From: a virus
Reading direction: 5' to 3' (one strand)
IMG/VR virus record: IMGVR_UViG_3300017764_000019
Location: 1-38,316 of that record
Length of the DNA: 38,316 nucleotides
Position numbers and translations under genes: made by a program. Numbering within the stretch: position 1 is the first letter of the stretch; every line of letters begins with the position of its first letter. Under the pieces are notes generated by a model. That model worked only from the letters and a program-made list of their open reading frames with translations. It did not search any database and was not told the DNA's origin. Below are positions 23,726 to 37,765 of this stretch, piece after piece.

Positions 23726-24286
23726 GTGAACAATCTGCCGACTTTTGACCTTGGACCTCAGATAAAATTGCCGCCTTCTCCTGTATTGCCTCCCAGGATG
23801 AAGCTGGAAGTTCCGCGACTTCAAGTGCCTTCCTATAAGCCTCTTGTGATGCCTTCACAGGCTCAGATGAAGCGGATGATGAAGGATGAAGCTGAAAAGC
23901 AAGATCGTCAAAAACAAAAAAAGAGTAAGCAGTCGGCGCAACCACCCCAACCACTAGCCCCACCAAAACCAGAAGTAGTGATCGCACCAATCAACGAAGT
24001 CACTCAAATCAGTGTACCTGGAACTGAGATAAAAATTCCAGTACCTCGCGCAGAAATAGTATCTACTGCTGTTATGACGGCTGGAGCTTCATCTGTGGCG
24101 GCTGTAGCAGGAACTTTGGCAGCCAGTCGCATATTTAATTACTCACAAAAAATACTTAAGCCAGTGATTACTAAGGTTTTGCGGAGTCTTGCAAAATTAC
24201 TTGGGAAGAGTCCTCCTGAAAGTGACGCCAGGAAGAGATGGAGACGACGTGCCCGCAGATTACAAAAAGGTCGGAGTCAGGTCTAA
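23726..24286 (+). CDS. Pro-rich protein with C-terminal hydrophobic segment, cyanophage type
   Basis: From GTG 23726 the product is 186 residues. The N-terminus is proline-rich (NNLPTFDLGPQIKLPPSPVL), then a Lys/Gln-rich linker, then SVPGTEIKIPVPRAEIVSTA, a hydrophobic Ala-rich helix (VMTAGASSVAAVAGTLAASR) and a basic tail. The VPGT-(E/D)-I-x-(I/L)-PVP-x-x-EI block followed by a membrane-like helix is one I recall from cyanophages. GTG 23705 or TTG 23696 are alternative starts; GGGG at 23712-23715 fits 23726 best. The 3' end overlaps a leftward gene by 116 bases. The role is unknown. Confidence 0.65.
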   Translation: MNNLPTFDLGPQIKLPPSPVLPPRMKLEVPRLQVPSYKPLVMPSQAQMKRMMKDEAEKQDRQKQKKSKQSAQPPQPLAPPKPEVVIAPINEVTQISVPGTEIKIPVPRAEIVSTAVMTAGASSVAAVAGTLAASRIFNYSQKILKPVITKVLRSLAKLLGKSPPESDARKRWRRRARRLQKGRSQV

Positions 24287-24776
24287 TTGTGTAGCCTAGT
24301 TCGAGCAACTTAGCGCATTGATTCGCCCTTGTTAGCTCATAAGATAATCGCTCTCTTTCAAGTTGTCTCCTTACTAAATCTTTACACATTTCAGTGATAC
24401 TTCCATCAATAGGCATTACAAGACCGATCTGCATCCCCCAATTATTCGACCTTACATATGGGTCAGTGATCGTGTCATTGCCAAGATAAAAGGGAGTTAT
24501 GTTTAACGTAGGCCCATTGCATGAGACACCATTGCCAAAAGATTGGCGACTACTGCTTCCCCTTTGGTTTATTTGAACGCTTTGATTTGTATTGTTACTT
24601 GTCGCCGCAGCTTGTGGGCGAGCTTCAACGCTTGTTTCTTCTGCTAGAGAAGGCGTGCAAAATATTACTGAGAGAACACCGACAATGAGGTAACAATAGA
24701 GTCGGTTTCTATGGTACGATCTATATCTATTGTCTCGACGATGCCTGCTGATCTGGTTGTTATTTCTAAGGTCCAT
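24171..24776 (-). CDS. Secreted protein with cyanophage-type VSCxGxTLxxTPF domain
   Basis: A 201-residue reading frame. The core GNGVSCNGPTLNITPFYLGN, MQIGLVMPIDGSITEMCKDL and LRRQLERER-like helix with ARANQCAKLLELGYTIRPDS match a family I associate with cyanophages. A signal peptide (VGVLSVIFCTPSLA) precedes EETSVEA, but the only normal start codon is ATG 24776, 30 or more residues upstream inside the preceding gene. An ATT start near the signal peptide would be an alternative. It shares an operon with the two genes upstream and overlaps a convergent gene by 116 bases. Confidence 0.6.
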   Translation of the reverse strand: MDLRNNNQISRHRRDNRYRSYHRNRLYCYLIVGVLSVIFCTPSLAEETSVEARPQAAATSNNTNQSVQINQRGSSSRQSFGNGVSCNGPTLNITPFYLGNDTITDPYVRSNNWGMQIGLVMPIDGSITEMCKDLVRRQLERERLSYELTRANQCAKLLELGYTIRPDSDLFVICGHVVSISSWRHFQEDSSQVILQDSAKP

Positions 24777-25018
24777 GGGTCGCCTGCAGTGTCAATTGAC
24801 CATGTAGCAGCCGAGTCTGTTATGTTTGTGCTCGGGCTTACATTCTCACCATTGTAGGTAGTAACCGCCGCGCCAAAAACTTCGTGGGCGATTGTCTCAG
24901 TAATTGTTTGATTGGTAGTCGTTGTGGATTGCATACTACCAGTAGTAAAACTCGGCGTTATTGATTGTGCATGCGCTGGTGCGACAAAAATAAAAATCAA
25001 GAGGATGAGTTTGTTCAT
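24665..25018 (-). CDS. Secreted beta-rich protein, cyanophage type
   Basis: A 117-residue protein with a short signal peptide (MNKLILLIFIFVAPAHAQS, likely cleaved after AHA). The mature chain is Thr/Ser/Ile-rich: SFTTGSMQSTTTTNQTITET, VTTYNGENVSPS, DPWTLEITTRSAGIVETIDI. The FT-x-GSM-x-STT-x-T motif and the RSAGVIETIDIDR-like end are familiar from cyanophage genomes. The ATG overlaps the stop of the upstream gene (ATGA on the minus strand). The export signal suggests periplasmic or envelope action; there is no catalytic motif. Confidence 0.65.
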   Translation of the reverse strand: MNKLILLIFIFVAPAHAQSITPSFTTGSMQSTTTTNQTITETIAHEVFGAAVTTYNGENVSPSTNITDSAATWSIDTAGDPWTLEITTRSAGIVETIDIDRTIETDSIVTSLSVFSQ

Positions 25019-25290
25019 TTGATTTCGTTAGATTTTTTGGTTGGATCGTTTGGCTCAAATTTCTTTCTTTGGTTGCCGTTATTTCCGTTTGTTTTTCTCT
25101 CGATTCCAAAACTGGCCATTGCACCGGTCAACAGACTTGCCACAAAAGTGTTATCCATTTTCATATTAGGCACAATAGATAGATAAGAAAGGGTCAGAAG
25201 TGACGCCGACCATAAGAGAACAGCGCACTTAACTAAGTCGGCGATACAATGCCCTTCTTTCTGATGTGCCTCGTCTTTTTCTGATTGCAT
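25015..25290 (-). CDS. Two-TM membrane protein, holin candidate
   Basis: A 91-residue protein: a charged N-terminus (MQSEKDEAHQKEGHCIADLV), a hydrophobic segment CAVLLWSASLLTLSYLSIVP (about 22-41), a short turn, a second segment (FVASLLTGAMASFGI, about 48-62) and a very basic tail (ERKTNGNNGNQRKKFEPNDP). Size, two membrane segments and charged tail fit class II holins. No endolysin gene is visible beside it, so the call rests on topology. It is the first gene of a three-gene leftward operon followed by two secreted proteins. Confidence 0.5.
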   Translation of the reverse strand: MQSEKDEAHQKEGHCIADLVKCAVLLWSASLLTLSYLSIVPNMKMDNTFVASLLTGAMASFGIERKTNGNNGNQRKKFEPNDPTKKSNEIK

Positions 25291-25332
25291 GGTCGGGAAG
25301 AGCTACGATTTCAGTGTAACGAATACAAGTAC

Positions 25333-25518
25333 ATGATGATTGCGCTTATCAAACCGATCCTTTTTAATTTGATCAATTCGGACAATGTAAAAAGGCTTGT
25401 AGTCGATCTACTGAGAGCATATGCACGTACAACCGACAATACAGTTGATGATAAGATCTGTGATTACGTTGAGACGAGCTTGTTCCCATGCATGACAGGA
25501 AATTGCCCGGTTAATTAA
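25333..25518 (+). CDS. Small helical cyanophage-type protein (61 aa)
   Basis: From ATG 25333 the product is MMIALIKPILFNLINSDNVK, then RLVVDLLRAYARTTDNTVDD and a Cys-containing tail. The motif IKP-(I/L)-L-x-x-(L/I)-x-SD-x-VKRL-(I/V)-VDLL-x-A-x-A-x-x-TDN-x-VDD is one I recall from marine cyanophages, so the downstream ATG is preferred over TTG 25285. It looks like three short helices. It starts 43 bases from the divergent holin-like gene. The function is unknown. Confidence 0.65.
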   Translation: MMIALIKPILFNLINSDNVKRLVVDLLRAYARTTDNTVDDKICDYVETSLFPCMTGNCPVN

Positions 25519-25575
25519 CTTAATTATTTCTAAGTAATTTTCTATGGTCAATTAGTTGATCATGGCCGACACTGT

Positions 25576-25591
25576 GTGCAATACGTTGCAC
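25576..25591. promoter_or_regulatory. Inverted repeat upstream of HNH gene
   Basis: GTGCAA-TACG-TTGCAC is a perfect 6-bp inverted repeat, 29 bases upstream of the HNH start codon. A third GTGCAA coincides with that start (25621). It may be an operator or a short RNA hairpin. Confidence 0.3.
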
Positions 25592-25620
25592 CGGTAATTT
25601 GTCCTACGAAATTTTAGGTC

Positions 25621-25932
25621 GTGCAACATACAATTATTGAGACTGCCCTCGTCTCAAAAAAGCAGACTAAGCTGCGTTTCCGCGATAGTATTTTTCTTGC
25701 TTGGGGCTGGTGTTGCTGTTACTGCGGCAAAATGCTCTCACAACATGACGCGACATTAGATCACATTGAGCCGAGACATGTAGGAGGATTGACCGAAAGA
25801 AAAAATCTTGCTGCCTGTTGTTTTAGCTGCAACTCACACAAGTCAGGCCACAATTGGAGGCAATGGTTTAGAGAGCAGCCGTTTTACTCACAAAGCAGGG
25901 AAAAGTGGATTGATGAATGGCAGGATCAATAA
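25621..25932 (+). CDS. HNH endonuclease
   Basis: A 103-residue protein from GTG 25621. The HNH fold is clear: CCYCGK (zinc cysteines), TLDHIEPRHVGGLTERKNLA (the DH catalytic pair and a G-G turn), CCFSCNSHKSG (second Cys pair and the final H region), then NWRQWFREQPFY. This form, with zinc cysteines and W-x-x-WFR-x-Q at the end, is common as free-standing HNH genes in cyanobacteria and their phages. It could be a homing nuclease or act in packaging or host DNA cutting. It is not beside terminase here, so homing or recombination seems more likely. Confidence 0.85.
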   Translation: MQHTIIETALVSKKQTKLRFRDSIFLAWGWCCCYCGKMLSQHDATLDHIEPRHVGGLTERKNLAACCFSCNSHKSGHNWRQWFREQPFYSQSREKWIDEWQDQ

Positions 25933-26100
25933 CTACACCTCATCAATGTGGTCGATTGTATAGGAATTATTAATGTCGTCATTTATTGAGTACCCAGATG
26001 CGATTAATTCATTCAAAGCAGTGTCGACTGAGGACGCATTTATATCCACAAGAAAAAACTCATTATCGCGATAAAGATAGAATCTAACGATACCAATCAT
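25933..26100 (-). CDS. Small acidic protein (55 aa)
   Basis: On the minus strand ATG 26100 opens a frame MIGIVRFYLYRDNEFFLVDI followed by NASSVDTALNELIASGYSIN and an acidic end, stopping directly at the convergent HNH stop. Its ATG overlaps the stop of the upstream leftward gene (ATGA). A beta-strand then helix pattern and the coupling argue for a real gene. The family is not recognised. Confidence 0.6.
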   Translation of the reverse strand: MIGIVRFYLYRDNEFFLVDINASSVDTALNELIASGYSINDDINNSYTIDHIDEV

Positions 26101-26318
26101 AATTCTTCCAAGGTTTTTTTATCGCCTGTTTTATAGCAACTTTTGATCTCCCACATATCCAACATTTGCTCATAAAATATACGAGCCTGCCACTCCTGCT
26201 CATGTTCTCGCGTCATGCCTGCGTATGTAACTCTATAGACGCGACCTGCGTCAGTAGAAACCACAATGAGCGTCGGCTTTTGACTTGAACTATGATGATT
26301 TAGATGATTCTCAGACAT
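26097..26318 (-). CDS. Small hypothetical protein (73 aa)
   Basis: From ATG 26318 the product is MSENHLNHHSSSQKPTLIVV followed by STDAGRVYRVTYAGMTREHE and a helical C-terminus. The frame is open further upstream, but that part lies in antisense to the rightward gene at 26341 and looks non-coding. The strand pattern ending VYRVTYAG and the aromatic helix EQMLDMWEI suggest a small folded domain. The family is unknown. It forms a two-gene leftward unit with the 55-residue gene. Confidence 0.55.
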   Translation of the reverse strand: MSENHLNHHSSSQKPTLIVVSTDAGRVYRVTYAGMTREHEQEWQARIFYEQMLDMWEIKSCYKTGDKKTLEEL

Positions 26319-26340
26319 GATTGGCACCGATTTTGCATGG

Positions 26341-26637
26341 ATGATTGTGGACTTGCCTCTTGAGGAGCAGCTCGCCCTAGAAAAGCATGTACGAGCGGCC
26401 AGGGATTGTGGTGATGTCGATGAAATCAAGGAGCTTTGTGGCGAGTTGTTAAAGCAATCAGTGATGCAAAAAAATCTTTTGAGGCAAGCAGTTGGCAGAA
26501 TTGCCGAGCTTGAACAGCAAAAAGATCTTGCAAAAGCGGCTCACATGAAAATTGTGGCGGAGAAACAACAGGAAGAAGAGAGGGCAAAGCGGAACATATT
26601 CAATGTTATTTTAAATTTATTCCACAGAGGTAAGTGA
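26341..26637 (+). CDS. NblA-like helical protein (possible phycobilisome degradation factor)
   Basis: From ATG 26341 the product is 98 residues: MIVDLPLEEQLALEKHVRAA, RDCGDVDEIKELCGELLKQS, VMQKNLLRQAVGRIAELE, then a coiled tail. The first ~50 residues follow the NblA pattern: a short L-x-(L/V)-E-(E/Q)-Q-(F/L)-x-L start, helix 1, an RD turn, and helix 2 with E-(L/V)-(L/V)-(R/K)-Q and N-(L/I)-(F/L). NblA adaptors trigger phycobilisome breakdown, and some freshwater cyanophages carry nblA. The 40-residue C-terminal extension is not typical. ATG 26317 is an alternative start. This is a by-eye similarity only. Confidence 0.45.
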   Translation: MIVDLPLEEQLALEKHVRAARDCGDVDEIKELCGELLKQSVMQKNLLRQAVGRIAELEQQKDLAKAAHMKIVAEKQQEEERAKRNIFNVILNLFHRGK

Positions 26638-27486
26638 TTTTAATTTTTCAGTCGCGTTACGCAAAATCTTTCTGACAGTTTCTCGACAAAGACCCACCTC
26701 ACCTCCGATATCAACTAAGGTTACGCGCTCTTTACTAAAGTATTTTCTTGAGATTATTTCATATTCACGATCCGTTAATTGTTCGAGCGCATACTCTAGT
26801 TTTTCTAATGATGGCGACCTAACTTCGTCATTTAAATCAGAAAGGGCGTCATCTTGATCTGGTATTTGTGAGACAAGAGAGGACCCATCATCATGGCAAA
26901 GCCGATCAAGACTTGTATGTGGCAAAATTCTCTCCTCCCAAAGCAAGATCTGCTCAATTGGCCGATTAAAATATTCGCTTAGTTCTTGCAGCGTAGGCTG
27001 ACAGTTATAGATCGCAGCAAATTCTGCTTTGTATTCGAACAATTCTTTCATTTGCTGCAACGTGCCGTGTGGCACATAGATCATCCGCACTTGAGTAGCT
27101 ATTGCCCTCACAATTGCCTGCCTAATCCACCAATATGCGTAAGTGCTGAATTTATACCCAAGCGTACCATCAAACTTCTCACAGGCGCGATCCAGGCCCT
27201 TGTAGCCCTCTTGTATGAGGTCGTCTAACTCCATACTTGTGCCTTCGATTTTACCCATGTATTTCTTGGCTACGGTAACAACCAAGCGCAAGTTGTGGCG
27301 AACAAACTTTTCCTTTGCACGTTTGCCCGAACGCATCTCTTTTAATTCAGATTCTGTCCGCTCACCTGGCTCTTCTTCGAGAGCTAGCCAACGGAAAATC
27401 CGCCGTGACAGCTGAATTTCCTGCTCAGCCGTCAACAACGGATATTTGCCGACTTGGTTCAAGTAAAACTGAAGCGAATCAGCCAT
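26617..27486 (-). CDS. RNA polymerase sigma factor, cyanobacterial group 2 (sigma-70) type
   Basis: A 289-residue protein with all main sigma-70 regions: region 1.2 (DSLQFYLNQVGKYPLLTAEQ, residues 3-30), region 2 (KEKFVRHNLRLVVTVAKKYM to FSTYAYWWIRQAIVRAI, 58-130), region 3 (140-200) and region 4 with helix-turn-helix LVDIGGEVGLCRETVRKIL (257-275). Group 2 sigma factors lack region 1.1, as here. The sequence is cyanobacterial in style and unlike T4 gp55. It would redirect host polymerase to phage promoters. It is the last gene of the leftward recombination operon, 6 bases after SSB, and overlaps a convergent gene by 21 bases. Confidence 0.93.
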   Translation of the reverse strand: MADSLQFYLNQVGKYPLLTAEQEIQLSRRIFRWLALEEEPGERTESELKEMRSGKRAKEKFVRHNLRLVVTVAKKYMGKIEGTSMELDDLIQEGYKGLDRACEKFDGTLGYKFSTYAYWWIRQAIVRAIATQVRMIYVPHGTLQQMKELFEYKAEFAAIYNCQPTLQELSEYFNRPIEQILLWEERILPHTSLDRLCHDDGSSLVSQIPDQDDALSDLNDEVRSPSLEKLEYALEQLTDREYEIISRKYFSKERVTLVDIGGEVGLCRETVRKILRNATEKLKSLTSVE

Positions 27487-27492
27487 TTTAGG

Positions 27493-27852
27493 CTAGAACG
27501 ACATACCTCCATCTAAACTATTGCGCGACTTTATGTCAACCTGTTTTGATTCTGTTGAATCGACCTTTGCAGGCAGTGTAAAGTCCTGCACATCAACATT
27601 GAGACCGATTCTTTGTTGGCCGTCTTTTGTGTAATTATTCTGCGAGAGTCGGCCATGTACTGTGATTTGCACACCTTTTTTGAGAAATGTTTTTGCCACA
27701 GTTGCCGAGTTACCCCAAACTGAACAATTAAGCCAGACTGTGTTTTTTTTACGATCTTGTGAACCCAGACTAAAGCTCACAACAGAATCTCCGTTGTGCG
27801 ACCTTTCCTCAGGGTCATTGCCGAGGTAGCCATTGGCTGTGATGCTTAGCAT
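27493..27852 (-). CDS. ssb: Single-stranded DNA-binding protein
   Basis: From ATG 27852 the product is 119 residues: MLSITANGYLGNDPEERSHN, SVVSFSLGSQDRKKNTVWLN, CSVWGNSATVAKTFLKKGVQ, ITVHGRLSQNNYTKDG. This is the bacterial SSB OB fold with the G-x-(L/Y)-x-x-DPE, W-x-x-(C/V)-x-x-WG and G-x-x-(I/V)-x-V-x-G-x-L landmarks. The C-terminal tip GGMSF is only a weak version of the acidic DDIPF tail that recruits host partners. It protects ssDNA made by the exonuclease encoded just upstream. The longer open frame overlaps the Rad52-like gene and is not needed. Confidence 0.9.
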   Translation of the reverse strand: MLSITANGYLGNDPEERSHNGDSVVSFSLGSQDRKKNTVWLNCSVWGNSATVAKTFLKKGVQITVHGRLSQNNYTKDGQQRIGLNVDVQDFTLPAKVDSTESKQVDIKSRNSLDGGMSF

Positions 27853-27853
27853 G

Positions 27854-28486
27854 TCAAATGTTTTGTGATTGGACGATTTGAAGCTCTTTATCCAGCAGTT
27901 GCTGGAGTAGGATTTTATGTTGTTGCGGTTCAAGACTGCCATCTTTCAGGCGATCTTGCAACCTCTTTGAAACCTTCTCAAGAGCGGCCAAATCTAAGCA
28001 TGCTGAAATCGCGGCACTGCCAAGATTAAAAATTTCTTCAGTCGATGGTTCGTTGCCCTCTTCTTTAAAGCTGTCGCCAGAACTGTCATAACATGCCAAA
28101 CCAAGCGGTTTACCAAAGGTCATCAAAGCCCGCTTACGAGCATCTGTCTCCGCTTCTTTAACTGCTGACTCATGCAGCTCGCCGATAGTAATAAAACCTT
28201 TTTTTGGTGCTCGGCCATGACCAGCGCCCCAGCCTTCACGCACGACGTTGCCACAAGAAATACGCACTTTAGCGATATATGAAATGCATTTAATGTCATC
28301 TGATACGCAATCCATAAGCAACGTTTCGCTTGACCAACCATCAAAACCAAATATTCTGTTCGCCTCATCCATGGCAAACCATCCCTCTATGTAATTAAGC
28401 TCATGGCCTGATGGTCCCCTGCGCTTGCTTACATTTTTTTCTAGCATCGGCTGCGCCAATGCGTTTTTGGTGAAGTCGGAAAACAT
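27854..28486 (-). CDS. Rad52-family single-strand annealing protein
   Basis: A 210-residue protein with the Rad52/Rad22 core: GPSGHELNYIEGWFAMDEAN, RIFGFDGWSSETL, VREGWGAGHGRAPKKGFITI and ELHESAVKEAETDARKRALM, followed by TFGKPLGLACYD. The landmarks L-x-YIEG-W-x-A-x-(D/E)-x-AN-x-IFGF-x-GW and the AETDA-x-KRAL helix are diagnostic. Such proteins anneal complementary single strands during phage recombination. A helical C-terminal tail could contact partner proteins. It lies between the exonuclease and SSB genes with 1-base spacing on each side. Confidence 0.92.
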   Translation of the reverse strand: MFSDFTKNALAQPMLEKNVSKRRGPSGHELNYIEGWFAMDEANRIFGFDGWSSETLLMDCVSDDIKCISYIAKVRISCGNVVREGWGAGHGRAPKKGFITIGELHESAVKEAETDARKRALMTFGKPLGLACYDSSGDSFKEEGNEPSTEEIFNLGSAAISACLDLAALEKVSKRLQDRLKDGSLEPQQHKILLQQLLDKELQIVQSQNI

Positions 28487-28487
28487 G

Positions 28488-29306
28488 TCAGAAAGTTAAG
28501 CCGGGGGAATCATCAGGCGTATGTTCGTCATAAAACGCCCAACGCGGCAAGGCTAATGGTTTTTTGCTAAAGCTCGGCCAAGCATTATTTTTTTTACAGA
28601 TTGCGATTGAGCGCATGTTACTATCTCGTAGCTTTTCACCCAGAATCGCCGCCTCTTGATCTAATTCATAAACTCCAACGTTGTACGGATACTCTTTTTC
28701 AACTGCGATAAAAACAAACTTCTTGCATCTAGTTCCACGCATGTAGTGCATTTGCTGCACATGGTATCGAAACGTAGCGCAAGATTTAGCAAAGCCTTTC
28801 GGCGATGCGTCTTTTGTTGTTTTAAGATCCACAACAATGTCATCATTCCACCAGTCAGGTCGACACTTGCAGGTCAAAGGGATGCTATAACTCGTATCAT
28901 CCCACCACAAAGAACGTTCGGCCTCACCCTCTGAAAGCAGCCAGGCAGCGTCGGCGTTTGCTCTTACAGCATCGGCCATGCGCATCACCGTGTCGTATTC
29001 AGTTTGCGTAACTGGCTCGATGTCTCTTTGCTCTAGTGCCGCTATTTTTTCTTTTCCTGCCTTTGTTGTTCTTGACTCAATGACTGCATATCTCCCTTGC
29101 AACTCATTAGGCTCAAGTACGGCGACATGGGTAAATGTGCCTATTTTCATCGCCTGAGTTGGCTTGGAGGTTGGCCGATCTGGGTCAATAAATCTCTTGT
29201 AGTAAGTCCACGGTGACTTGCTGATTGCGTGGAGATGAGAGGCAGATACAGCGGGGTCTTTGTGATAATCTTGATTGCTGATGAAATTTTGTTGTGAAAG
29301 CGTCAC
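28488..29306 (-). CDS. RecE-like exonuclease, PD-(D/E)xK fold
   Basis: A 272-residue protein with the exonuclease VIII / DUF3799 layout: YHKDPAVSASHLHAISKSPW, GTFTHVAVLEP (conserved His60), E130 (EAERSLWW), D151 in CRPDWW, D160-x-K162 in VVDLKTTKDA, and Y181-x-x-Q184/Q185 in YHVQQMHYMRG. These are the catalytic PD-(D/E)xK, Gln-Tyr and GTxxH motifs. It resects dsDNA 5' ends so the Rad52-like partner can anneal the exposed strands, a Redalpha-beta type pair. It starts 41 bases after the RusA-like gene. Confidence 0.9.
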   Translation of the reverse strand: MTLSQQNFISNQDYHKDPAVSASHLHAISKSPWTYYKRFIDPDRPTSKPTQAMKIGTFTHVAVLEPNELQGRYAVIESRTTKAGKEKIAALEQRDIEPVTQTEYDTVMRMADAVRANADAAWLLSEGEAERSLWWDDTSYSIPLTCKCRPDWWNDDIVVDLKTTKDASPKGFAKSCATFRYHVQQMHYMRGTRCKKFVFIAVEKEYPYNVGVYELDQEAAILGEKLRDSNMRSIAICKKNNAWPSFSKKPLALPRWAFYDEHTPDDSPGLTF

Positions 29307-29347
29307 AGGTGATCGCCAAAGTTTGGGCCGAACTTAGCGTAGTTTTT

Positions 29348-29800
29348 TCAACGCTGCAAGGTCGACACTGTTAGCAAAGCACCCGGGGGCTCAAATAGTT
29401 GGCAGTATCTTTTCTCAGCAATTAGCCGCACCACAAGGCAGTCATCCTTCAAAGCACCGCCCATAACTAGGGCATCAAGAGTGGATCTGCACACTTTATC
29501 AATGTCATTTTTCTTAACGAAGTAATGTTGCGGCGCGTTACTGCGTAGATCGCCGTTAGCGCGGAAGTGTGATTTCGGCCTTTTAAATCTAAAAATTATC
29601 TGCACGTCCACTGGCACGTCAAAGGTTACGAGCCTTTGGTCGCGCATTTGTACTTTTGTTGCGTCAGAGACGGCTTGACGCCAAGGCTTCAATCGCTTGC
29701 ATACCTCCACAAGTCGTCCGCGTCCTACATGTTTTTTGCTGCCTTGTGGCGCAGCTTCAATGTTGAGGACCGAGACGTACAGATTTTGCCGCAGAGACAT
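29348..29800 (-). CDS. rusA: RusA-like Holliday junction resolvase
   Basis: A 150-residue protein: IEAAPQGSKKHVGRGRLVEV (PQGS-K motif), LKPWRQAVSDA, FRFKRPKSHFRANG, and KNDIDKVCRSTLDALVMGGA followed by LKDDCLVVRLIAEKRY. The D-x-DK-x-x-R-x-x-LDAL and (L/V)-x-DD-x-x-V blocks carry the catalytic aspartates of RusA. RusA cuts four-way junctions and works with the exonuclease-annealing pair encoded downstream in the same operon. Its ATG (29798-29800) overlaps the start of a divergent reading frame in a shared CATG. Confidence 0.9.
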   Translation of the reverse strand: MSLRQNLYVSVLNIEAAPQGSKKHVGRGRLVEVCKRLKPWRQAVSDATKVQMRDQRLVTFDVPVDVQIIFRFKRPKSHFRANGDLRSNAPQHYFVKKNDIDKVCRSTLDALVMGGALKDDCLVVRLIAEKRYCQLFEPPGALLTVSTLQR

Positions 29801-30191
29801 GGTGGACTTTGTTAAAGAAAAGCGAGCGTTTGAGATGCTTCAATGGGTGCCATATAGCCTCCCATGTGATTATGATCTGCTTCTTGCGGCTAAAGGTCAT
29901 TATACAAAGCTCCAGACCGAGCGGTCTGACAGAGCATTTGATGAATGTAGCCGTCAAAACGTAGATAAATCAATCTCCGAACTTCAAGCATTTAGAACTC
30001 TCCATGAACTTGGCATCTTTTCAGACGACACACTCTTCTCACCACACAAATCTAAATCCCAATATTACACAACAATCCTCAGAAATCAGCGACTTTCAGC
30101 AGGCTCTTCTCAAGTTAAAGAACCGCGCAGAGCAAATAGTAGGCACAGAGCACGAATCAGACTGGCTTCCATTGATGAGAAATGCGGCTAG
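29799..30191 (+). CDS. Uncertain reading frame upstream of and overlapping the helicase gene
   Basis: From ATG 29799 the frame encodes 130 residues: MVDFVKEKRAFEMLQWVPYS, HYTKLQTERSDRAFDECSRQ, SISELQAFRTLHELGIFSDD look protein-like, but after about residue 90 it becomes Arg/Ser-rich (EPRRANSRHRARIRLA) while the helicase frame looks genuine. It overlaps the helicase by 188 bases, and it contains the leftward promoter candidate. It is either a small gene whose tail is dictated by overlap, the 5' part of a helicase joined by a frameshift, or spurious. Confidence 0.4.
   Translation: MVDFVKEKRAFEMLQWVPYSLPCDYDLLLAAKGHYTKLQTERSDRAFDECSRQNVDKSISELQAFRTLHELGIFSDDTLFSPHKSKSQYYTTILRNQRLSAGSSQVKEPRRANSRHRARIRLASIDEKCG
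29899..29928 (-). promoter_or_regulatory. Candidate operator-promoter for the leftward recombination/sigma operon
   Basis: On the minus strand a perfect TATAAT lies at 29904-29899. Eight bases upstream of it is CAGACCG-AG-CGGTCTG (29913-29928 on the + strand), a perfect 7-bp inverted repeat that covers the -35 position. Predicted transcription would start near 29892, about 90 bases before the RusA-like start. This layout fits a repressor or activator site over a promoter. Confidence 0.5.
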
Positions 30192-31608
30192 TCATTACAA
30201 TGTTGAGCTTGACGTTCGAGATAGTGACCTAAGACAATTTCTGGCCACGGCAAAAGCAAAGGTTGCCCCCGAGGGTGTTGGTAAAAAAATCGGAGACAGG
30301 TTAGATCTTACGCCGATCCCCTGGTCTTGGGAGGGTCTAATTATGAAGGCACGCATGAACCTATTAGTCGCGCAACCCAAGGTAGGTAAGACGGCACTTC
30401 TTCTTGAGATGATCGCCAAATGGCATATGGGAGACAGTGAATTTTTAGGGGCGAACTTTATAGGTGAATGTCCACCAGTTATAATCGTTGGAACTGATCA
30501 AAGTGAGGCCGACTGGGGCTCAATGCTATCGGCGGTTAATTTAGTAAGTAAAGACGGCACTATTTGCAAACCAATCGAGCGTATTTGGACAGCAGCCGAC
30601 CCATTGCATTTCAATGATCGCGGACTTGACGCCTTGGGTGCCGAACTTGAAAATCATGAATCGCCATTGTTGATAGTGGATTCTTACCACAGCTGTGTCG
30701 GCCCTCTAGGGCAAGAAGATAGCGGATCTACATATGCCAATCCGTTGGCGGCGCTGCTCATTGTTGCAGCAAAAGCCCGAGCCACAACTTGTGTAATCCA
30801 CCATGCCAACAAAGGTGTCGGTTCAAATATAGTCTCTTCCTCGCGTGGCACCACAGCCTTGACTGCTGTGCCGTCTCAACTGATTCACATGAGTTTTCTT
30901 GAGACGGAAAACAAAAGGGATAAGCGGATCACCCTTAAAACGCAGGGCCGCTCTGGAACGCCAATGAACCTGTTGATCGAACGAACTGACGCAGGTTGGG
31001 TAAGTCATGGCGATGGTGAGGTTGCGGAGGAAGCTCAAAGACTTCAAGGGGTGGCGAATGAACTAGCTGGAAGGCAGGCCGATTTTTATGATTACATTGA
31101 TATGCGGTGGACTTTAGGTGAATTTGCGGTGAGTAGCAGCGAGCTGGGGCAACACTTTAACCTGACAACCAACAAGATCAGTCGTTACTTGAAACAACTC
31201 GTTACAAAAGGCTTGATCGCCTGCTGTGGTCATACTGAGCCGGGAGTTGATGGTGGTAGGCCGAGCCCTCTGTTCAGACCCTCTCCAGAAACCGGGTTAG
31301 AAACGTTAGAAAGGTTAGAAACCTCCGCTTCTACACACGAAATAAGGAGTTTATCACCTTTATCACCTTTAAAACCTGATATAGCGGAGGAAGGTTTATC
31401 ACCTAAGTCGCCAGTGCAGCGTCTTATGTCCGACAACACCTGGCAATCTGGATGGCTTGTGCGCGATGGCTCCAATCCACACTCCGTCACAATTGAGAAA
31501 GTCGGCAACCCTATGTACGCTGTTCGCAATATGCGTTGGGGAATTGACCTGAAAGTCGCGGATAGCCCCTTTGTGTCAAACGTTAGCGATTCAACAAAAG
31601 AGTTTTAA
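30004..31608 (+). CDS. RepA-like AAA ATPase / replicative helicase with winged helix tail
   Basis: A 534-residue protein. Residues 123-130 (AQPKVGKT) are Walker A; LLIVDSYHS with D226 is Walker B; CVIHHANKG and SSRGTTAL follow as sensor-like motifs, together the RepA/DnaB-like AAA_25 family. About residues 365-405 (ELGQHFNLTTNKISRYLKQL) form a winged helix DNA-binding domain. It is probably the helicase or origin protein starting phage replication with host polymerase, since no phage DNA polymerase is seen. ATG 30004 lacks a Shine-Dalgarno; ATG 30175 is a later alternative. The first ~30 residues look unstructured. Confidence 0.82.
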   Translation: MNLASFQTTHSSHHTNLNPNITQQSSEISDFQQALLKLKNRAEQIVGTEHESDWLPLMRNAASHYNVELDVRDSDLRQFLATAKAKVAPEGVGKKIGDRLDLTPIPWSWEGLIMKARMNLLVAQPKVGKTALLLEMIAKWHMGDSEFLGANFIGECPPVIIVGTDQSEADWGSMLSAVNLVSKDGTICKPIERIWTAADPLHFNDRGLDALGAELENHESPLLIVDSYHSCVGPLGQEDSGSTYANPLAALLIVAAKARATTCVIHHANKGVGSNIVSSSRGTTALTAVPSQLIHMSFLETENKRDKRITLKTQGRSGTPMNLLIERTDAGWVSHGDGEVAEEAQRLQGVANELAGRQADFYDYIDMRWTLGEFAVSSSELGQHFNLTTNKISRYLKQLVTKGLIACCGHTEPGVDGGRPSPLFRPSPETGLETLERLETSASTHEIRSLSPLSPLKPDIAEEGLSPKSPVQRLMSDNTWQSGWLVRDGSNPHSVTIEKVGNPMYAVRNMRWGIDLKVADSPFVSNVSDSTKEF

Positions 31609-31640
31609 TATCGCGTCGACTGACTATTATGTAAAAGTCG

Positions 31641-31683
31641 AGCCTGGGTGATGACAGGCTTGGCCCCTGGAGGAGAGGCCAGG
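31641..31683 (+). ncRNA. Structured segment after the helicase gene: two hairpins
   Basis: AGCCTG (31641-31646) pairs with CAGGCT (31655-31660). CTTGGCC (31659-31665) pairs with GGCCAGG (31677-31683), with one G-T pair, so the two stems share two bases and could exclude each other. With the terminator-like stem that follows this gives a compact structured 3' UTR or small RNA in a 222-base gene-free gap. No known RNA family is recognised. Confidence 0.35.
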
Positions 31684-31695
31684 TGATCGGGGAAA

Positions 31696-31742
31696 AAGTG
31701 GGGGGCCGCGATGCAGTTTTGCTCGTGTCCCCGCTTTTTTTT
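31696..31742 (+). terminator. Probable intrinsic terminator after the helicase gene
   Basis: AAGTGGGG (31696-31703) pairs with CCCCGCTT (31729-31736), allowing one G-T pair, around a 25-base loop, and is followed by a run of eight T (31735-31742). The loop is long but the GC stem and T-run are convincing. Confidence 0.6.
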
Positions 31743-31760
31743 GATAAGATCCGCTTATCA
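31742..31760. promoter_or_regulatory. Operator-like inverted repeat TGATAAG-N5-CTTATCA
   Basis: TGATAAG (31742-31748) and CTTATCA (31754-31760) form a perfect 7-bp dyad with a 5-base spacer. It sits between a terminator and the promoter of the small-gene array, the usual place for a regulator-binding site. The cognate protein is not identified. Confidence 0.45.
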
Positions 31761-31770
31761 TGAAACTTCT

Positions 31771-31799
31771 TTGTATTTGTGATAATAATTTGATATATT
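31771..31799 (+). promoter_or_regulatory. Candidate promoter for the small-gene array
   Basis: TTGTAT (31771-31776), a 17-base spacer and TATATT (31794-31799) resemble a sigma-70 promoter with a weak -35. A start near 31806 would give a leader of about 25 bases before TTG 31831, similar to the leaders described further right. Confidence 0.4.
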
Positions 31800-31830
31800 T
31801 TGTTCTTTTGTTACCATTAGCTGGTCCTGC

Positions 31831-32289
31831 TTGATTCACTTGTTCCTCGACCTTTCACCACAACTTGACGATGATGTTAAATCATTGGCTATCAAATCTG
31901 TATATGCAGATCGAATCAGAGAGAGATCAAAAACCTTTGAATTGCGGACGTACTCGCCAGGCATTCTCCCAGGAAGCTGGTGTGCTTTGTATGAAACAGC
32001 TCCAACAAAGGCGATTCAGACAGTTTTCAAAGCGGGCAGAACATTCAAGCTAACTCCGAATAAGGCATGGGAATTGTACTCTGCAAATTTTGGAATTGAC
32101 TTTGATTCTTACTTTAGTTATTTTAGAAGACGCGCCTGGGCTTACGGAGTTGAGATAGCGGATGTAAGATCTTTTAAGGCCGTCTCGCTTCATGAGTTGA
32201 GAGAATCGCCAGGTTTTACAGTTCCACAAATATGTCAGAAGCTAAAGACTAGGCATCAGAGGATCTTATCAGCCACTGACAAACTATAA
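31831..32289 (+). CDS. ASCH/PUA-like domain protein
   Basis: A 152-residue protein from TTG 31831. The core LAIKSVYADRIRERSKTFEL, RTYSPGILPGSWCALYETAP, TKAIQTVFKAGRTF, ELYSANFGIDFDSYFSYF and AYGVEIADVRSFK follows the ASCH/PUA-like family, with the signature of an (A/I)-x-x-I-x-x-(R/G)-x-K-x-(F/V)-ELR block, a P-(G/L)-x-W-x-x-Y and YFRRRAWAYG. Such domains bind RNA or modified nucleotides and are frequent in phages; some act in transcription control. The conserved region begins near residue 18, so the exact start is uncertain. Confidence 0.75.
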   Translation: MIHLFLDLSPQLDDDVKSLAIKSVYADRIRERSKTFELRTYSPGILPGSWCALYETAPTKAIQTVFKAGRTFKLTPNKAWELYSANFGIDFDSYFSYFRRRAWAYGVEIADVRSFKAVSLHELRESPGFTVPQICQKLKTRHQRILSATDKL

Positions 32290-32297
32290 GAAATTCT

Positions 32298-32372
32298 GAC
32301 TACGACTCACTTTTTTGTGTGTTATCATGCTCTCGTCTGCCGTGCAGACTTTCCTCTATCCCCGATTCTATC
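32298..32372 (+). promoter_or_regulatory. Promoter plus hairpin and CU-rich leader (copy 1)
   Basis: GACTAC at 32298, a -10 TATCAT at 32323-32328 and, 6 bases later, the hairpin GTCTGC-CGT-GCAGAC (32335-32349). The 23 bases between hairpin and ATG are CU-rich and include CCTCTATCCCCGATTCTATC; there is no Shine-Dalgarno sequence. The same arrangement recurs before 34136 and 36215, and in part before 35842. Confidence 0.6.
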
Positions 32373-32855
32373 ATGATTTCAAGACGTGTGCGTCCATCTC
32401 AGGACAGTTTGATTTTTGACAATCTAAAGTTATTGTCACAGGGCGTTCTAGAAAATTTTAAAGACGATTTATTTGTTCATGATCGTGAAATTTTACAGAA
32501 AAAAGTGGAGCCTGGCACTTCATGGCTGTGGATTGTTCACAAAAATGGTACACATCTTGCCCGATGGGATGAAGATGCTTACGCCGGTTCAAAGGACTCA
32601 TTGTTGGAACACTTTGTAAGAAGTCTTGTCAGAGGAGATTGGTCAAATAGTAGTATCCACATTTTTCACGTTAATGAGATCATTGACGGCGAAGCTCATG
32701 GGTGGGTTTCAGGCCGACTTGAGATAGATGATATTGCAAGAGCTTTGCCGCGTCCACTTCCTCAACCTAAGCTGCCTGGCGAAAAGATTGAGCAACAAGT
32801 TTACTCGGCTCACTCTGGTTTAGTTCAGGCTCTTCAGCCGACTTCAGTGGCTTGA
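32373..32855 (+). CDS. Hypothetical protein (160 aa) of the accessory array
   Basis: From ATG 32373 the product starts MISRRVRPSQDSLIFDNLKL and includes TSWLWIVHKNGTHLARWDED, SIHIFHVNEIIDGEAHGWVS and a Pro-rich end (ALPRPLPQPKLPG). The frame is open upstream to 32319, but the CU-rich leader abuts this ATG. I do not recognise the family. The mixed alpha/beta pattern with W-x-W-IV-x-K-x-GTHL suggests a folded domain of about 125 residues and a flexible tail. Confidence 0.65.
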   Translation: MISRRVRPSQDSLIFDNLKLLSQGVLENFKDDLFVHDREILQKKVEPGTSWLWIVHKNGTHLARWDEDAYAGSKDSLLEHFVRSLVRGDWSNSSIHIFHVNEIIDGEAHGWVSGRLEIDDIARALPRPLPQPKLPGEKIEQQVYSAHSGLVQALQPTSVA

Positions 32856-32856
32856 G

Positions 32857-33207
32857 ATGATGAGACACACGATAACTTATTCATTTGACGCCGAATTTGC
32901 CAATGCTTTTTATCATGAGGAAGAAAATTCTTTTGCAGCTAATGACTGTGAAGAAAACTCGGTTATTTTGCACAATATAAATCGCGAAAGAATGATAAGA
33001 CTTGTTCGTAATTGGGTGTGTAACAAGGCGATTCAGTCTGTTAATATGCACGAAAAACCCTGGGAAAGGTCAGAAATGTCCGAGAATGAAATGCGTAATC
33101 TTCATGAAATAAATTCGGCGCTCAATTGTTTCTTGTCGCCACCGCCAGACAAAAGTGAAGTAGTTATCGCGATGCAACAGAAGGAAAAAGGCCGACATAA
33201 GGCATGA
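32857..33207 (+). CDS. Hypothetical protein (116 aa)
   Basis: Begins MMRHTITYSFDAEFANAFYH and is acidic in the first half, with a helical middle (INRERMIRLVRNWVCNKAIQ) and a Lys-rich end. The second methionine at 32860 may be the actual start. It lies one base after the previous stop and overlaps the next start (ATGA at 33204). The family is not recognised. Confidence 0.6.
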   Translation: MMRHTITYSFDAEFANAFYHEEENSFAANDCEENSVILHNINRERMIRLVRNWVCNKAIQSVNMHEKPWERSEMSENEMRNLHEINSALNCFLSPPPDKSEVVIAMQQKEKGRHKA

Positions 33208-33584
33208 CCAGTTCGTATTTTAAAAATCTATTTCCCCGACCAACAACAATGAAAACGAAACTAATTACGGCTCCAGCTTTTCCTTGTCTCGGCGCACTTG
33301 TGTTTTCACGCGGTGTTGCAAGCAGGTCAGAGGCGGACGCAATATTCTGCGATGCTGTCAAATATCGCCAGCAGCTTTTCAGGAACGGTGATTGGGGCGA
33401 TCTTGGTGAGGAGGACTGGGACCAAAATGTCCAAACTTGCAAACAGGCAGATGGCGGTCAATTGCTTGGTATATACAAGCTACCTGATGGATCAAGAATT
33501 TGGATTCTCACAGTTGGTTACGCCAGACAGACGCTCGGCCATGATTATTGTTACACCACGATCCTGTTTCCTGACGAATACTGA
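33204..33584 (+). CDS. Conserved hypothetical protein with DWGDL / IWI motifs
   Basis: A 126-residue protein. GALVFSRGVASRSEADAIFC, NGDWGDLGEEDWDQNVQTCK, GIYKLPDGSRIWILTVGYAR and TTILFPDEY match a small family I have seen on plasmids, integrative elements and phages (GDWGDL-x-x-ED, then KIWIIT, then TT-(I/V)-LFP-x-EY), of unknown function. ATG 33249 (MKTKLITAPAFP) is a possible later start and is preceded by a TTTCCCCGA tract like the CU-rich leaders. ATG 33204 is coupled to the gene before. Confidence 0.7.
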   Translation: MTSSYFKNLFPRPTTMKTKLITAPAFPCLGALVFSRGVASRSEADAIFCDAVKYRQQLFRNGDWGDLGEEDWDQNVQTCKQADGGQLLGIYKLPDGSRIWILTVGYARQTLGHDYCYTTILFPDEY

Positions 33585-33856
33585 TGCCTCGCCACAAAAC
33601 TGCAAACTGGGACGGCTTGACTGAGACTCTCAAGCGAGCTGAAACCTCACAGAATCGACTTTGCCCCTTCTTCACACAACTATGTCACAACAACACAGAT
33701 CGCCCAATTGGTTACACAGAAGAAATATTGGCGAGCAATCTCAACGAAGCGTGCGCAATAGCCGCCAATATTTGGGAAGGCAAGATTCCATCGGGCATAA
33801 GCTACATGGTATGGGGCACTGGTGGAAGCATAAAATTGGTAACGCCGACGCAATGA
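33584..33856 (+). CDS. Hypothetical protein (90 aa)
   Basis: Begins MPRHKTANWDGLTETLKRAE and contains NLNEACAIAANIWEGKIPSG, with a glycine-rich end (VWGTGGSIKLVTPTQ). It starts within the preceding stop (TGATG) and ends in the next start (ATGA), so it is part of a coupled run of four small genes. No family is recognised. A helix with repeated alanines followed by a short beta hairpin is the visible structure. Confidence 0.6.
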   Translation: MPRHKTANWDGLTETLKRAETSQNRLCPFFTQLCHNNTDRPIGYTEEILASNLNEACAIAANIWEGKIPSGISYMVWGTGGSIKLVTPTQ

Positions 33857-34023
33857 AAAAAACAAGCATTTTAACCGATATTGAGATTTCTTCGTTGATT
33901 ATTATGATGGAAGATATCAAGGGCGAGTTTAAGGGCGCTGGTGATTATAAGTTGCCAGAGTTCTATGAGACGATCAGAGTTAAGTTACAAAATATGCATA
34001 AGTCGCGTTATAAAGCTCCATAA
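33853..34023 (+). CDS. Small hypothetical protein (56 aa)
   Basis: From ATG 33853 the product is MKKTSILTDIEISSLIIMME followed by DIKGEFKGAGDYKLPEFYET and a basic helix. The ATG overlaps the previous stop (ATGA). The frame is open upstream inside the previous gene but coding there is unlikely. It is helical and of unknown function, and is the last gene before a terminator. Confidence 0.6.
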   Translation: MKKTSILTDIEISSLIIMMEDIKGEFKGAGDYKLPEFYETIRVKLQNMHKSRYKAP

Positions 34024-34049
34024 ATATCGCTCATGGATGCAATATGTTC

Positions 34050-34075
34050 GACCCCTTGACAAGGGGTCTCTTTTT
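34050..34075 (+). terminator. Terminator hairpin containing a consensus -35
   Basis: GACCCCT (34050-34056) pairs with AGGGGTC (34062-34068) around loop TGACA, followed by TCTTTTT. The dyad GACCCCTTGACAAGGGGTC is perfect. Its centre is also the TTGACA -35 of the next promoter, so termination and initiation signals overlap physically. Confidence 0.7.
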
Positions 34076-34084
34076 ATGTATATT
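34056..34084 (+). promoter_or_regulatory. Consensus sigma-70 promoter for the DUF932 gene
   Basis: TTGACA (34056-34061), a spacer of exactly 17 bases and TATATT (34079-34084). This is the best housekeeping-type promoter in the window. Start is predicted at 34091-34092, exactly where the leader hairpin begins. Confidence 0.75.
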
Positions 34085-34091
34085 TAAAGAG

Positions 34092-34135
34092 TCAATCACA
34101 TCACTGATTGATTCTCTCTCATTCCCCGATTTATC
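34092..34135 (+). promoter_or_regulatory. 5' hairpin and CU-rich leader (copy 2)
   Basis: TCAATCA-CATCAC-TGATTGA (34092-34111) is a perfect 7-bp hairpin starting at the predicted transcript end. The next 24 bases are CU-rich (TTCTCTCTCATTCCCCGATT then TATC) up to ATG 34136, with no Shine-Dalgarno. Confidence 0.6.
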
Positions 34136-35122
34136 ATGGCTTCTGAGTTTACTGATGGCGTAATCATGCAAGGCGAACATGCTTGGCATGGCCTCGGACA
34201 AAATATTGAGGGCACACTCCCCGCAAGGGAAGCATTCACCCGAGCCAATGCACTGTTTACAGTCGAAAAAGCTCCACTGCTATTTCGTAACCCTATCACA
34301 GGTGTTGAGTCGGCCTCTGAGCACAGATGTGCGACTTACAGAACAGACACAGGCGATCAGCTTGGCACTGTTAGCCTCAATTATGAGGTGATTCAGAACG
34401 AGGAGCTCTGTAGGTTTGCGGAGATGCTCCGTGATGACTGTGAGATGGATACGGTGGTCGTACTCAAGGGTGGTGCTAAGGTCGCCTTCTCAGCTAAAAT
34501 CTTGGGAACTGACGCCGAAGTTGTCAAGGGTGACATCATTCATAGGCGACTTAATGGCTATCTGTCACATGATGGGACAACCAGCTTTGGTGGAATGTTC
34601 AGCAATGTCCGCATTGTCTGCAGCAATACACTTGGCTGGGCCATGCAAGATGCTAACAAGCACGGCAAACAATTCAAAATCTCACACACCAAACTCGGCG
34701 TGTCACAGATTGATTCGACTTTGAGGTCTATTGACATTGCTCGCCAGACCTTCACTCAAGAGGTCGAAGATTATAAGCGCATGGCCGAGACAGCTATGGA
34801 TTACAACTCTTATCGGACCTGGCTCACAGACCTTTACAATATGCCGAGCGTCAAACAGCAGGATGGTTCCCTGCGTCCAGGCCAGATAGAGGACTCCAAG
34901 GTTAAGTGGAACAAGCTACGCAATGCATGGGCCGGTGGTTATGGCACATCTATTAATGGTGTGTCCGATACTGTCTGGGGTGCTTTCAATGCTGTTACGG
35001 AAGTAGAAACCAGCTTAAGGGATGCATCAGACAGCAGGAACATCGCCACAGTCAATGGTTACTATGTCCAGCAAATTGTCAACAGGGCCAGGCGCTCTGC
35101 TGCTGAATTGTGTGCAGTATGA
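34136..35122 (+). CDS. DUF932 (phage/plasmid-like) protein
   Basis: A 328-residue protein: MQGEHAWHGLGQNIEGTLPA, SLNYEVIQNEELCRFAEMLR, VVLKGGAKVAFSAKILG, LSHDGTTSFGGMFSNVRIVC and SNTLGWAM are the DUF932/TIGR03299 landmarks (WH-x-LG, V-x-x-x-Y-x-x-(I/V)-QN-x-E, SHDG-(T/S), VCSNTL). The family is widespread on phages and plasmids and its biochemical role is unknown. It has its own strong promoter and leader and is followed by a terminator, so it is a single-gene unit. That suggests high early expression. Confidence 0.9.
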   Translation: MASEFTDGVIMQGEHAWHGLGQNIEGTLPAREAFTRANALFTVEKAPLLFRNPITGVESASEHRCATYRTDTGDQLGTVSLNYEVIQNEELCRFAEMLRDDCEMDTVVVLKGGAKVAFSAKILGTDAEVVKGDIIHRRLNGYLSHDGTTSFGGMFSNVRIVCSNTLGWAMQDANKHGKQFKISHTKLGVSQIDSTLRSIDIARQTFTQEVEDYKRMAETAMDYNSYRTWLTDLYNMPSVKQQDGSLRPGQIEDSKVKWNKLRNAWAGGYGTSINGVSDTVWGAFNAVTEVETSLRDASDSRNIATVNGYYVQQIVNRARRSAAELCAV

Positions 35123-35140
35123 TGGGTCTACCAGCTTCCC

Positions 35141-35164
35141 AGGGGCCGCAAGGCCCTTTTTTTT
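35141..35164 (+). terminator. Terminator after the DUF932 gene
   Basis: AGGGGCC-GCAA-GGCCCTT with a run of eight T (35157-35164). The stem is five GC pairs plus two closing pairs. It lies 22 bases before the next ATG, so the hairpin could also head that gene's leader in read-through transcripts. Confidence 0.85.
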
Positions 35165-35180
35165 ACGCCTTTAACTCGCC

Positions 35181-35351
35181 ATGCCAGCTTTTATTTGTGT
35201 TTATTATGTCTACCAAGATGATGTCAAGTATCGGAGAACAATTCAGATTTACGCCAAAGACTTGGAGCGTGCGGTGGACAAATGGACGAACATAAGAAGG
35301 GAGAATGAGTTCTTAGATGCCATCTTCTTGCCTACTAAGTGGGATCATTGA
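35181..35351 (+). CDS. Small hypothetical protein (56 aa)
   Basis: From ATG 35181 the product is MPAFICVYYVYQDDVKYRRT followed by IQIYAKDLERAVDKWTNIRR and a C-terminus LPTKWDH. It has a clear beta-strand, amphipathic helix, beta-strand pattern and no close competitor frame. The leader is CU-rich (ACGCCTTTAACTCGCC) without Shine-Dalgarno and follows a terminator hairpin at a spacing close to that of the other hairpin leaders. The family is not recognised. Confidence 0.6.
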   Translation: MPAFICVYYVYQDDVKYRRTIQIYAKDLERAVDKWTNIRRENEFLDAIFLPTKWDH

Positions 35352-35441
35352 TTTTTCCCATCAGATTTGCAGCAGGTGCTATGGTGCCTCCTGCATTTAT
35401 TTTGGAAAAAAACGTTTATCGGTTGAGTGGTGGCCTTGGTT
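35348..35441 (+). repeat. Dispersed intergenic repeat, copy 1
   Basis: TTGATTTTTCCCAT, then AGCAGGTGCTATGGTGCCTC and GGAAAAAAACGTTTATCGG (35348-35422) match the segment at 37065-37141. AGTGGTGGCCTTGGTT (35426-35441) is repeated exactly at 37035-37050, on the other side of that copy. The same stretch also opens a 44-codon frame from ATG 35381 (MVPPAFILEKNVYRLSGG), which is not conserved in the other copy. Past the repeat, TTAGCATGCTAA (35504-35515) is a perfect palindrome. Confidence 0.6.
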
Positions 35442-35515
35442 TCCAGGTGTCCAGATTGGACATCATGGTTGCCTGGTGTCCCTGGGAGAATATTTTACCC
35501 AACTTAGCATGCTAA

Positions 35516-35582
35516 AAATTCTTAATGTTCGGCGTAACAAAGCGGACTACAGCGAGACAAAGAATAGCTTATATTAAAAATG
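35516..35582 (+). repeat. Duplicated promoter unit, copy 1
   Basis: This segment aligns without gaps to 36105-36171. The first 40 bases are identical except one (AAATTCTTAATGTTCGGCG, then TAACA-A/C-AGCGGACTACAGCGA), a 13-base block differs, and the -10 region TTATATTAA is conserved. GACTAC lies 25 bases upstream of TATATT (35570-35575). It drives the 62-residue gene at 35603. Confidence 0.75.
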
Positions 35583-35602
35583 TCAAGAAAAGAGGTCAAT
35601 TG

Positions 35603-36104: not shown

Positions 36105-36171
36105 AAATTCTTAATGTTCGGCGTAACACAGCGGACTACAGCGAAGTGGGTAATGGTTTATATTAATAATG
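36105..36171 (+). repeat. Duplicated promoter unit, copy 2
   Basis: Second copy of the 35516-35582 unit, same length. The -10 TATATT is at 36159-36164 and GACTAC at 36134. Roughly 57 of 68 positions match, with the differences concentrated in the 13 bases just before the -10. Here the unit feeds a hairpin leader rather than a Shine-Dalgarno leader. Confidence 0.75.
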
Positions 36172-36214
36172 TGATCAATCAGGTCACACAACTTTCCCTC
36201 CACTCTTTTTAATT
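36171..36214 (+). promoter_or_regulatory. 5' hairpin and CU-rich leader (copy 4)
   Basis: GTGATC-AATCA-GGTCAC (36171-36187), with one G-T pair, begins 6 bases after the -10, at the predicted transcript start. The 27 bases to ATG 36215 are CU/A-rich (ACAACTTTCCCTCCACTCTT then TTTAATT) with no Shine-Dalgarno. Confidence 0.55.
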
Positions 36215-37763: not shown

Positions 37764-37765
37764 TT

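Follow-up and report, generated by a model that had tools for sequence, protein, structure and literature searches.

A phage lineage of cyanobacterial group 2-type sigma factors and its putative NblA-like neighbour in a cyanosiphovirus contig

Virus record IMGVR_UViG_3300017764_000019, from a lambda-like virus that infects marine cyanobacteria and analysed here over its full length of 38,316 nucleotides (the window), encodes an intact sigma-70 family factor of cyanobacterial group 2 type. The features of this protein suggest that it is probably functional and would steer the host RNA polymerase to phage promoters. By its position in the tree, it belongs to an old phage-only lineage within the cyanobacterial group 2 sigma factors. 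The sigma factor itself is of a known kind. The newer point is its neighbour, a small convergent gene that distantly resembles NblA and adjoins the sigma gene in most of the related phage loci.

Identity of the sigma factor

The sequence-only reading had placed an intact sigma gene at exactly the position given in Table 1, and Pfam, PHROG and the solved relatives in the PDB all support this. The ORF starts with ATG and encodes 289 amino acids. In Pfam, the protein matched Sigma70_r2 (PF04542; 1e-17), r1_2 (3.5e-12) and r4 (PF04545; 8e-10), all above the curated cut-offs, and it matched PHROG 351, 'RNA polymerase sigma factor', at 9.3e-64. The best solved relatives found by phmmer in the PDB were SigA/HrdB chains (6.7e-42), with residues 2-283 of the window sigma aligned. 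The top NCBIfam match was TIGR02997, Sig70-cyanoRpoD (1.2e-61), of which the whole model was covered at a score of 208.6 bits, below the cut-off of 384.5; we therefore describe the protein as group 2-type and not as a member of the host subfamily. The alignment to region 1.2 (PF00140) begins at residue 3, which implies that the protein lacks an N-terminal extension, region 1.1 being absent. The late sigma factor gp55 of phage T4 is a reduced protein without region 4. Region 4 is present in the window sigma according to Pfam, and the earlier view that it is of host type and not like gp55 therefore holds. A search for a second Sigma70_r2 match in the record, a virus contig of 38,316 bases, found none.

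The AlphaFold model of the protein, based on an alignment of 30 rows, had a mean pLDDT of 80.3, and fell below 50 at residues 206-222, which we take as the sigma finger region. Initiation-complex SigA chains match the model at E values down to 2.9e-14, and SigA of S. elongatus (9dvu_G) is one of them. Purifying selection is apparent from a pN/pS of 0.236 in comparison with the 79% identical protein of the metagenomic relative L002. A block of 62 nt spanning the start of the gene (27439..27500, minus strand) is identical in L002, synonymous sites included, while the sigma gene overall is 74% identical in DNA.

Phages with related sigma factors

A tblastn search with the window sigma found matches in 185 of 50,697 phage records. 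The best matches were KBS-S-2A (HQ634187; 41% identity over 92% of the query) and the Synechococcus phages S-CBS3 (GU936715; 36% over 97%) and S-CBS1 (HM480106; 45% over 71%). The annotation is rpoD in KBS-S-2A, and rpsD4, 'group 2 RNA polymerase sigma factor', in S-CBS1 and S-CBS3. The viral collection contains at least 80 contigs with a related sigma gene. Published carriers include KBS2A (PMC3751600) and S-LBS1 alongside S-CBS1/3 (PMC6157547). The Prochlorococcus siphovirus P-SS2, likewise a cyanosiphovirus, encodes a group 2 and a group 3 sigma factor; its group 2 sigma, ORF113, adjoins ssb as in the window, but its genome of >106 kb and its second sigma factor set it apart (PMC2784084). 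According to a review, 65 of 153 cyanophage genomes encode a putative sigma factor (PMC10452541).

In view of these published carriers and review counts, phages of this kind were already known to encode sigma factors. The sequence-only reading considered a full host-type sigma uncommon, which is wrong for cyanosiphoviruses, since S-CBS1, S-CBS3, KBS-S-2A, P-SS2 and S-LBS1 all carry one. Judged by homology and gene neighbourhood, the window sigma is the known 'group 2' sigma of cyanosiphoviruses, of the rpsD4/rpoD lineage.

Ancestry of the sigma factor

The best 80 loci listed in a genome scan were all cyanobacterial, and their proteins were 34–38% identical to the window sigma. A quick tree, in which 12 of these 80 loci were named for inclusion, comprised 114 rows (76 phage, 36 cyanobacterial and 2 from E. 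coli) after 12 duplicate rows had been dropped. The phage label required one change on this tree, with a weak support of 43. Of the 76 phage rows, 28 entered a more careful tree with 62 rows in total; the excluded rows comprised, among others, the long-branched S-CBS3 (L083), L064 and L073 and the long cyanobacterial rows L186, L190 and L193. Here, the 28 phage rows formed one clade (97/95), nested within a mixed group 2 node (98/96) that also held 15 cyanobacterial rows. The sister of the phage clade was a picocyanobacterial lineage (82/85). Four presumed SigA rows fell outside the group 2 node; they were assigned by their placement beside E. coli RpoD, and the group names are inferred because the genomes carry no such labels.

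The phylogeny that the sequence-only reading had proposed thus places the window sigma inside group 2. Both its architecture and its tree position are like those of the cyanobacterial group 2 factors (SigB-SigE type), yet it sits on a separate phage branch, at the above distance from the nearest host proteins listed. One ancient transfer from host to phage would be the simplest reading of this tree, although the excluded rows could alter it.

Core binding and promoter recognition

From work on E. coli and Taq, we take D403, Q406 and E407 of the E. coli factor to be core-binding positions, and Y430, W433, W434 and Q437 to be involved in melting of the -10 element. Presumably, R423, T440, R451, H455, E458, R586 and Q589 read or contact promoters. 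The window sigma keeps the equivalents of all positions in the first two sets, and of R441. Those of D403, Y430, W433, W434, Q437 and R441 are invariant in 76 of 76 phage rows, and those of Q406 and E407 are conserved in 75. Damage to core-binding residues, which the sequence-only reading had named as evidence against its proposal, is absent, as all checked positions are kept.

At the positions that presumably read promoters the window sigma carries the substitutions R423L, T440V, R451Y, H455G, E458Q, R586T and Q589K (E. coli numbering), while R584, E585 and R588 of region 4.2 are retained. Three of these substitutions (R423L, R451Y and E458Q) are shared with just two other rows among the 76. 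Hence, reading of the -10 element should be ordinary, whereas reading of the extended -10 and -35 elements may be altered, and the substitutions in the window lineage make a weaker activity on standard promoters possible.

These residues bear on what the factor does in the cell. In the window lineage, the missing counterparts of H455 and E458 and the R423L change might suit a decoy that sequesters core polymerase or anti-sigma factors, and so silences host transcription while initiating none itself. However, a decoy need not retain R584, E585 and R588 of region 4.2 and every aromatic residue for the -10 element, which are all kept under selection, and we regard this explanation as very improbable. 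An alternative explanation might be that the phage factor chiefly reprograms host promoters of carbon, nitrogen and light metabolism, as SigB-SigE do, while host SigA reads the phage genes. The unchanged -10 contacts are in line with this, and so is the linked NblA-like gene, which likewise points to host physiology. It would also be consistent with the reported changes in growth and acetyl-CoA when RpsD4 of S-CBS3 was expressed in S. elongatus (Sawa 2019, as cited in PMC10452541), and with the expectation of the P-SS2 authors that its group 2 sigma uses canonical sigma-70 promoters (PMC2784084). Against host reprogramming, the tree separates the phage lineage from the host sigma factors, and the -35 and extended -10 readers of the window lineage are unlike those of the hosts. 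We therefore consider it unlikely as the main role. A switch of the polymerase towards phage promoters is plausible from the same residues.

Candidate promoter targets

The hexamer GACTAC had been suggested as a general -35 element of the phage, but this idea finds little support: the window contains 10 occurrences against 9.07 expected, i.e., no enrichment, and just one duplicated element stands out. Within positions 24000-38316, neither the pairs of sigma-70 -35 and -10 elements (28 against 22.3, sd 4.5, in shuffled sequences) nor the predicted terminators (15 against 12.8, sd 3.4) gave a signal, and a search of the same region for a promoter class assignable to the window sigma found none.

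The duplicated element is an intergenic repeat of 68 nt, whose two copies match at 98% over 40 nt and then at 86% over 21 nt. Each copy precedes a small rightward ORF and contains TATATT 19 nt past GACTAC, which makes it a candidate promoter or operator, and we claim no more for it. Elsewhere in the viral collection, the element occurs only in L253, which is the same contig as L003 and has a sigma factor 100% identical to that of the window, and as single copies in L254 and L255. In the window, the two direct repeats flank a gene cassette of 589 nt that is missing from L254 and L255, where one repeat remains. It looks as if these relatives lost the cassette by recombination between the copies. 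Since their flanks fit recombination, they do not provide independent evidence for a promoter function of the element. A sigma gene was sought in both contigs, which are fragments, and gave no match.

Gene order around the sigma gene

The sigma gene follows four leftward genes in the order RusA, exonuclease VIII-like, Rad52 and SSB (Table 1), and its ATG comes directly after the stop codon of the SSB gene. The sequence-only reading had called it the last gene of a leftward operon. Indeed, it ends an uninterrupted block of recombination genes, but two small leftward ORFs lie beyond the convergent gene. The larger of these, with 73 amino acids, belongs to a family found in 71 of the 83 loci described below; by eye, its ATG and that of the NblA-like ORF overlap in the palindrome CATG.

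Table 1. Features of the window discussed in the text, with positions, strand and basis or remarks
Feature	Position	Strand	Remarks
55-aa ORF	25933..26100	-	Present also in L002 and L003
73-aa ORF, conserved phage family	26097..26318	-	Divergent from NblA-like ORF
NblA-like small two-helix ORF	26317..26637	+	Convergent with sigma gene; 3' overlap of 21 nt
Sigma-70 family factor, cyanobacterial group 2 type	26617..27486	-	Regions 1.2, 2, 3 and 4; without region 1.1
Single-strand DNA-binding protein (SSB)	27493..27852	-	Proposed start 27852, beside Rad52 stop; Pfam, PHROG
Rad52/22 family annealing protein	27854..28486	-	Pfam
Exonuclease VIII-like (DUF3799, PDDEXK)	28488..29306	-	Pfam, PHROG
RusA-like Holliday junction resolvase	29348..29800	-	First gene of leftward block; Pfam, PHROG
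68-nt intergenic repeat, copy 1	35516..35583	+	GACTAC and TATATT; candidate phage promoter/operator
68-nt intergenic repeat, copy 2	36105..36172	+	Same element

The same layout around the sigma gene is found in S-CBS1, KBS-S-2A and metagenomic relatives. In S-CBS1, an exonuclease gene lies upstream of the sigma gene, followed by the small convergent gp26, then gp25, with lysozyme beyond. In KBS-S-2A, the rpoD gene is followed by the convergent CPKG_00010, of the NblA-like family, and CPKG_00009, like in the window, but an HNH gene lies directly upstream of the sigma gene in place of SSB. S-CBS3 carries the same type of sigma factor, and no NblA-like neighbour was detected.

L255, a relative of 13.7 kb, joins positions 37185-38316 of the window to positions 1-1515 through ~3 kb that hold a terminase-like ORF (named by eye). 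The window is therefore an incomplete genome that lacks this ~3-kb part.

In the sister group (L004-L014), and likewise in L063 and L069, the sigma start codon is immediately preceded by a terminator-like hairpin, whose stem differs in sequence in L011-L013. A regulatory hairpin at this site was rejected, because it is absent from the window and, by folding energy, only 4 of 70 starts rank with the lowest 5% of the control sites.

This arrangement suggests how the phage sigma could act. It would be translated late from a leftward transcript running from RusA through the exonuclease, Rad52 and SSB genes to sigma, and would then compete with SigA in binding the core RNA polymerase of the host. 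The polymerase would be directed to phage promoters in which the -10 element is ordinary and the upstream element relaxed or altered; some host promoters might be served as well. The convergent NblA-like gene would be transcribed from the opposite strand. As the overlap makes the two transcripts mutually antisense, expression of the two genes could be separated in time.

The convergent small gene

Linkage of the small ORF to the sigma gene was assessed in 83 loci, i.e., the best 80 sigma-bearing contigs listed and three isolates, a set that counts near-duplicates and is biased to close kin. Phmmer found the family in 72 of these phage loci and the family HMM in 78, always on the strand opposite to sigma. 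At 77 loci the ORF lies at the 3' end of the sigma gene (72 overlap it, one abuts it and four are 365 nt away), and in L081 the match lies elsewhere. The family HMM did not find the ORF in L047, L073, L078, L080 and L083 (S-CBS3); L047 has just 289 nt beyond the sigma gene. The ORF is under coding pressure, with a pN/pS of 0.15–0.54 in seven pairs of relatives, and of 0.37–0.53 between the window and four relatives. AlphaFold predicts a helical hairpin (helices 15-30 and 34-105; pLDDT 87.2, pTM 0.51).

Searches of Pfam and of PDB sequences with the small ORF found no family, and matches to 3HCDH_N, dynein, LegK1 and SigX were discounted as chance-level. Foldseek gave nothing at E ≤ 0.001 for the model; the Foldseek/VIA list contains generic helical matches and no NblA, a comparison in which two-helix proteins are little informative. 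The top NCBIfam match of the window protein was nevertheless NblA (NF045916), at E 0.0075 and 16.4 bits against a cut-off of 100, and the window protein was the only one of 28 family members to match this model. Pfam NblA (PF04485) detected none of the 28 at E ≤ 1.

The comparison of profiles points further towards NblA. Aligned with hhalign, the small-ORF family reached a probability of 37.5 against five NblA sequences, and of 44.6 against 37 NblA sequences, with a score of 23.6 over 56 columns. This score was unmatched by 200 column shuffles (maximum 16.4). Because column shuffles destroy helix periodicity, a second null was drawn from 330 windows of real neighbouring families, of which the best reached 19.2 when aligned with the small family and 15.6 when aligned with NblA, both below the observed score. 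Rotated NblA alignments scored nearly as high as the observed one (23.0), since a local alignment survives rotation.

A small picocyanobacterial family, detected by profile searches (E ≤ 0.1) in 14 of the 61 genomes, forms a bridge between the two. The phage HMM detects the bridge proteins, and the NblA HMM detects eight of them at E < 1. Aligned with NblA, the bridge family reached a probability of 91.4 and a score of 33.9 (shuffled maximum 17.1), and aligned with the phage family a probability of 96.5 and a score of 48.7 (shuffled maximum 19.0). The bridge family was chosen for matching the phage profile, so that its phage link arises partly by selection; its NblA link does not. Among picocyanobacteria, L233, L235 and L236-L251 represent this small NblA-like family, which Pfam NblA missed in all five proteins tested. 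Among 388 cyanobacterial genomes searched at E ≤ 1e-4 for a prophage copy of the phage ORF, a single one matched, through the bridge-type ORF L238. In S. elongatus, the prophage pigment genes 0759/0760 are annotated as hypothetical protein and restriction endonuclease (PMC9239245).

Alternatively, the small protein might be an anti-sigma factor or co-regulator of the adjoining sigma factor, and no relative of NblA. Its near-obligatory linkage to sigma and its helical hairpin model would fit such a role, as would the failure of Pfam NblA to detect the family and the lack of an NblA chain in the Foldseek list. The scores that tie the bridge family to both NblA and the phage family argue against it, as does the top NCBIfam match of the window protein, and we think this alternative rather unlikely.

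NblA is an adaptor for phycobilisome degradation, which triggers the breakdown of the light-harvesting antennae. The small ORF is similar to NblA in profile along the helix pair, but it has a longer C-terminal helix and escapes detection by Pfam. On balance, these profile links make common descent with NblA fairly probable, whereas an NblA-like function is a possibility that we hold with more doubt than confidence.

Significance for cyanosiphoviruses

A published list of nblA carriers comprises podo- and myovirus isolates and metagenomic sequences (PMC9602691), and in a tabulation of ocean viruses the group closest to S-CBS1 has no nblA entry (PMC5332604). We found no mention of the sigma/NblA-like pair in the consulted portions of the literature on cyanophage and cyanosiphovirus nblA, S-CBS1, KBS-S-2A and S-CBS3. 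More speculatively, the pair could form a conserved control module of cyanosiphoviruses, in which the tail-to-tail sigma factor and distant NblA-family adaptor couple takeover of transcription with phycobilisome breakdown, and the overlapping transcripts, through mutual antisense action, switch the phage between its leftward (replication) and its rightward programme. As a whole, such a module seems unlikely.

To our knowledge, the control of gene expression in cyanosiphoviruses seems to have been little studied. A diverse clade of phage sigma factors provides a direct route to test viral takeover of the cyanobacterial polymerase. If the small ORF is a relative of NblA, attack on the host antenna would extend to siphoviruses, and a function would be assigned to a family that adjoins the sigma gene in almost every relative studied here.
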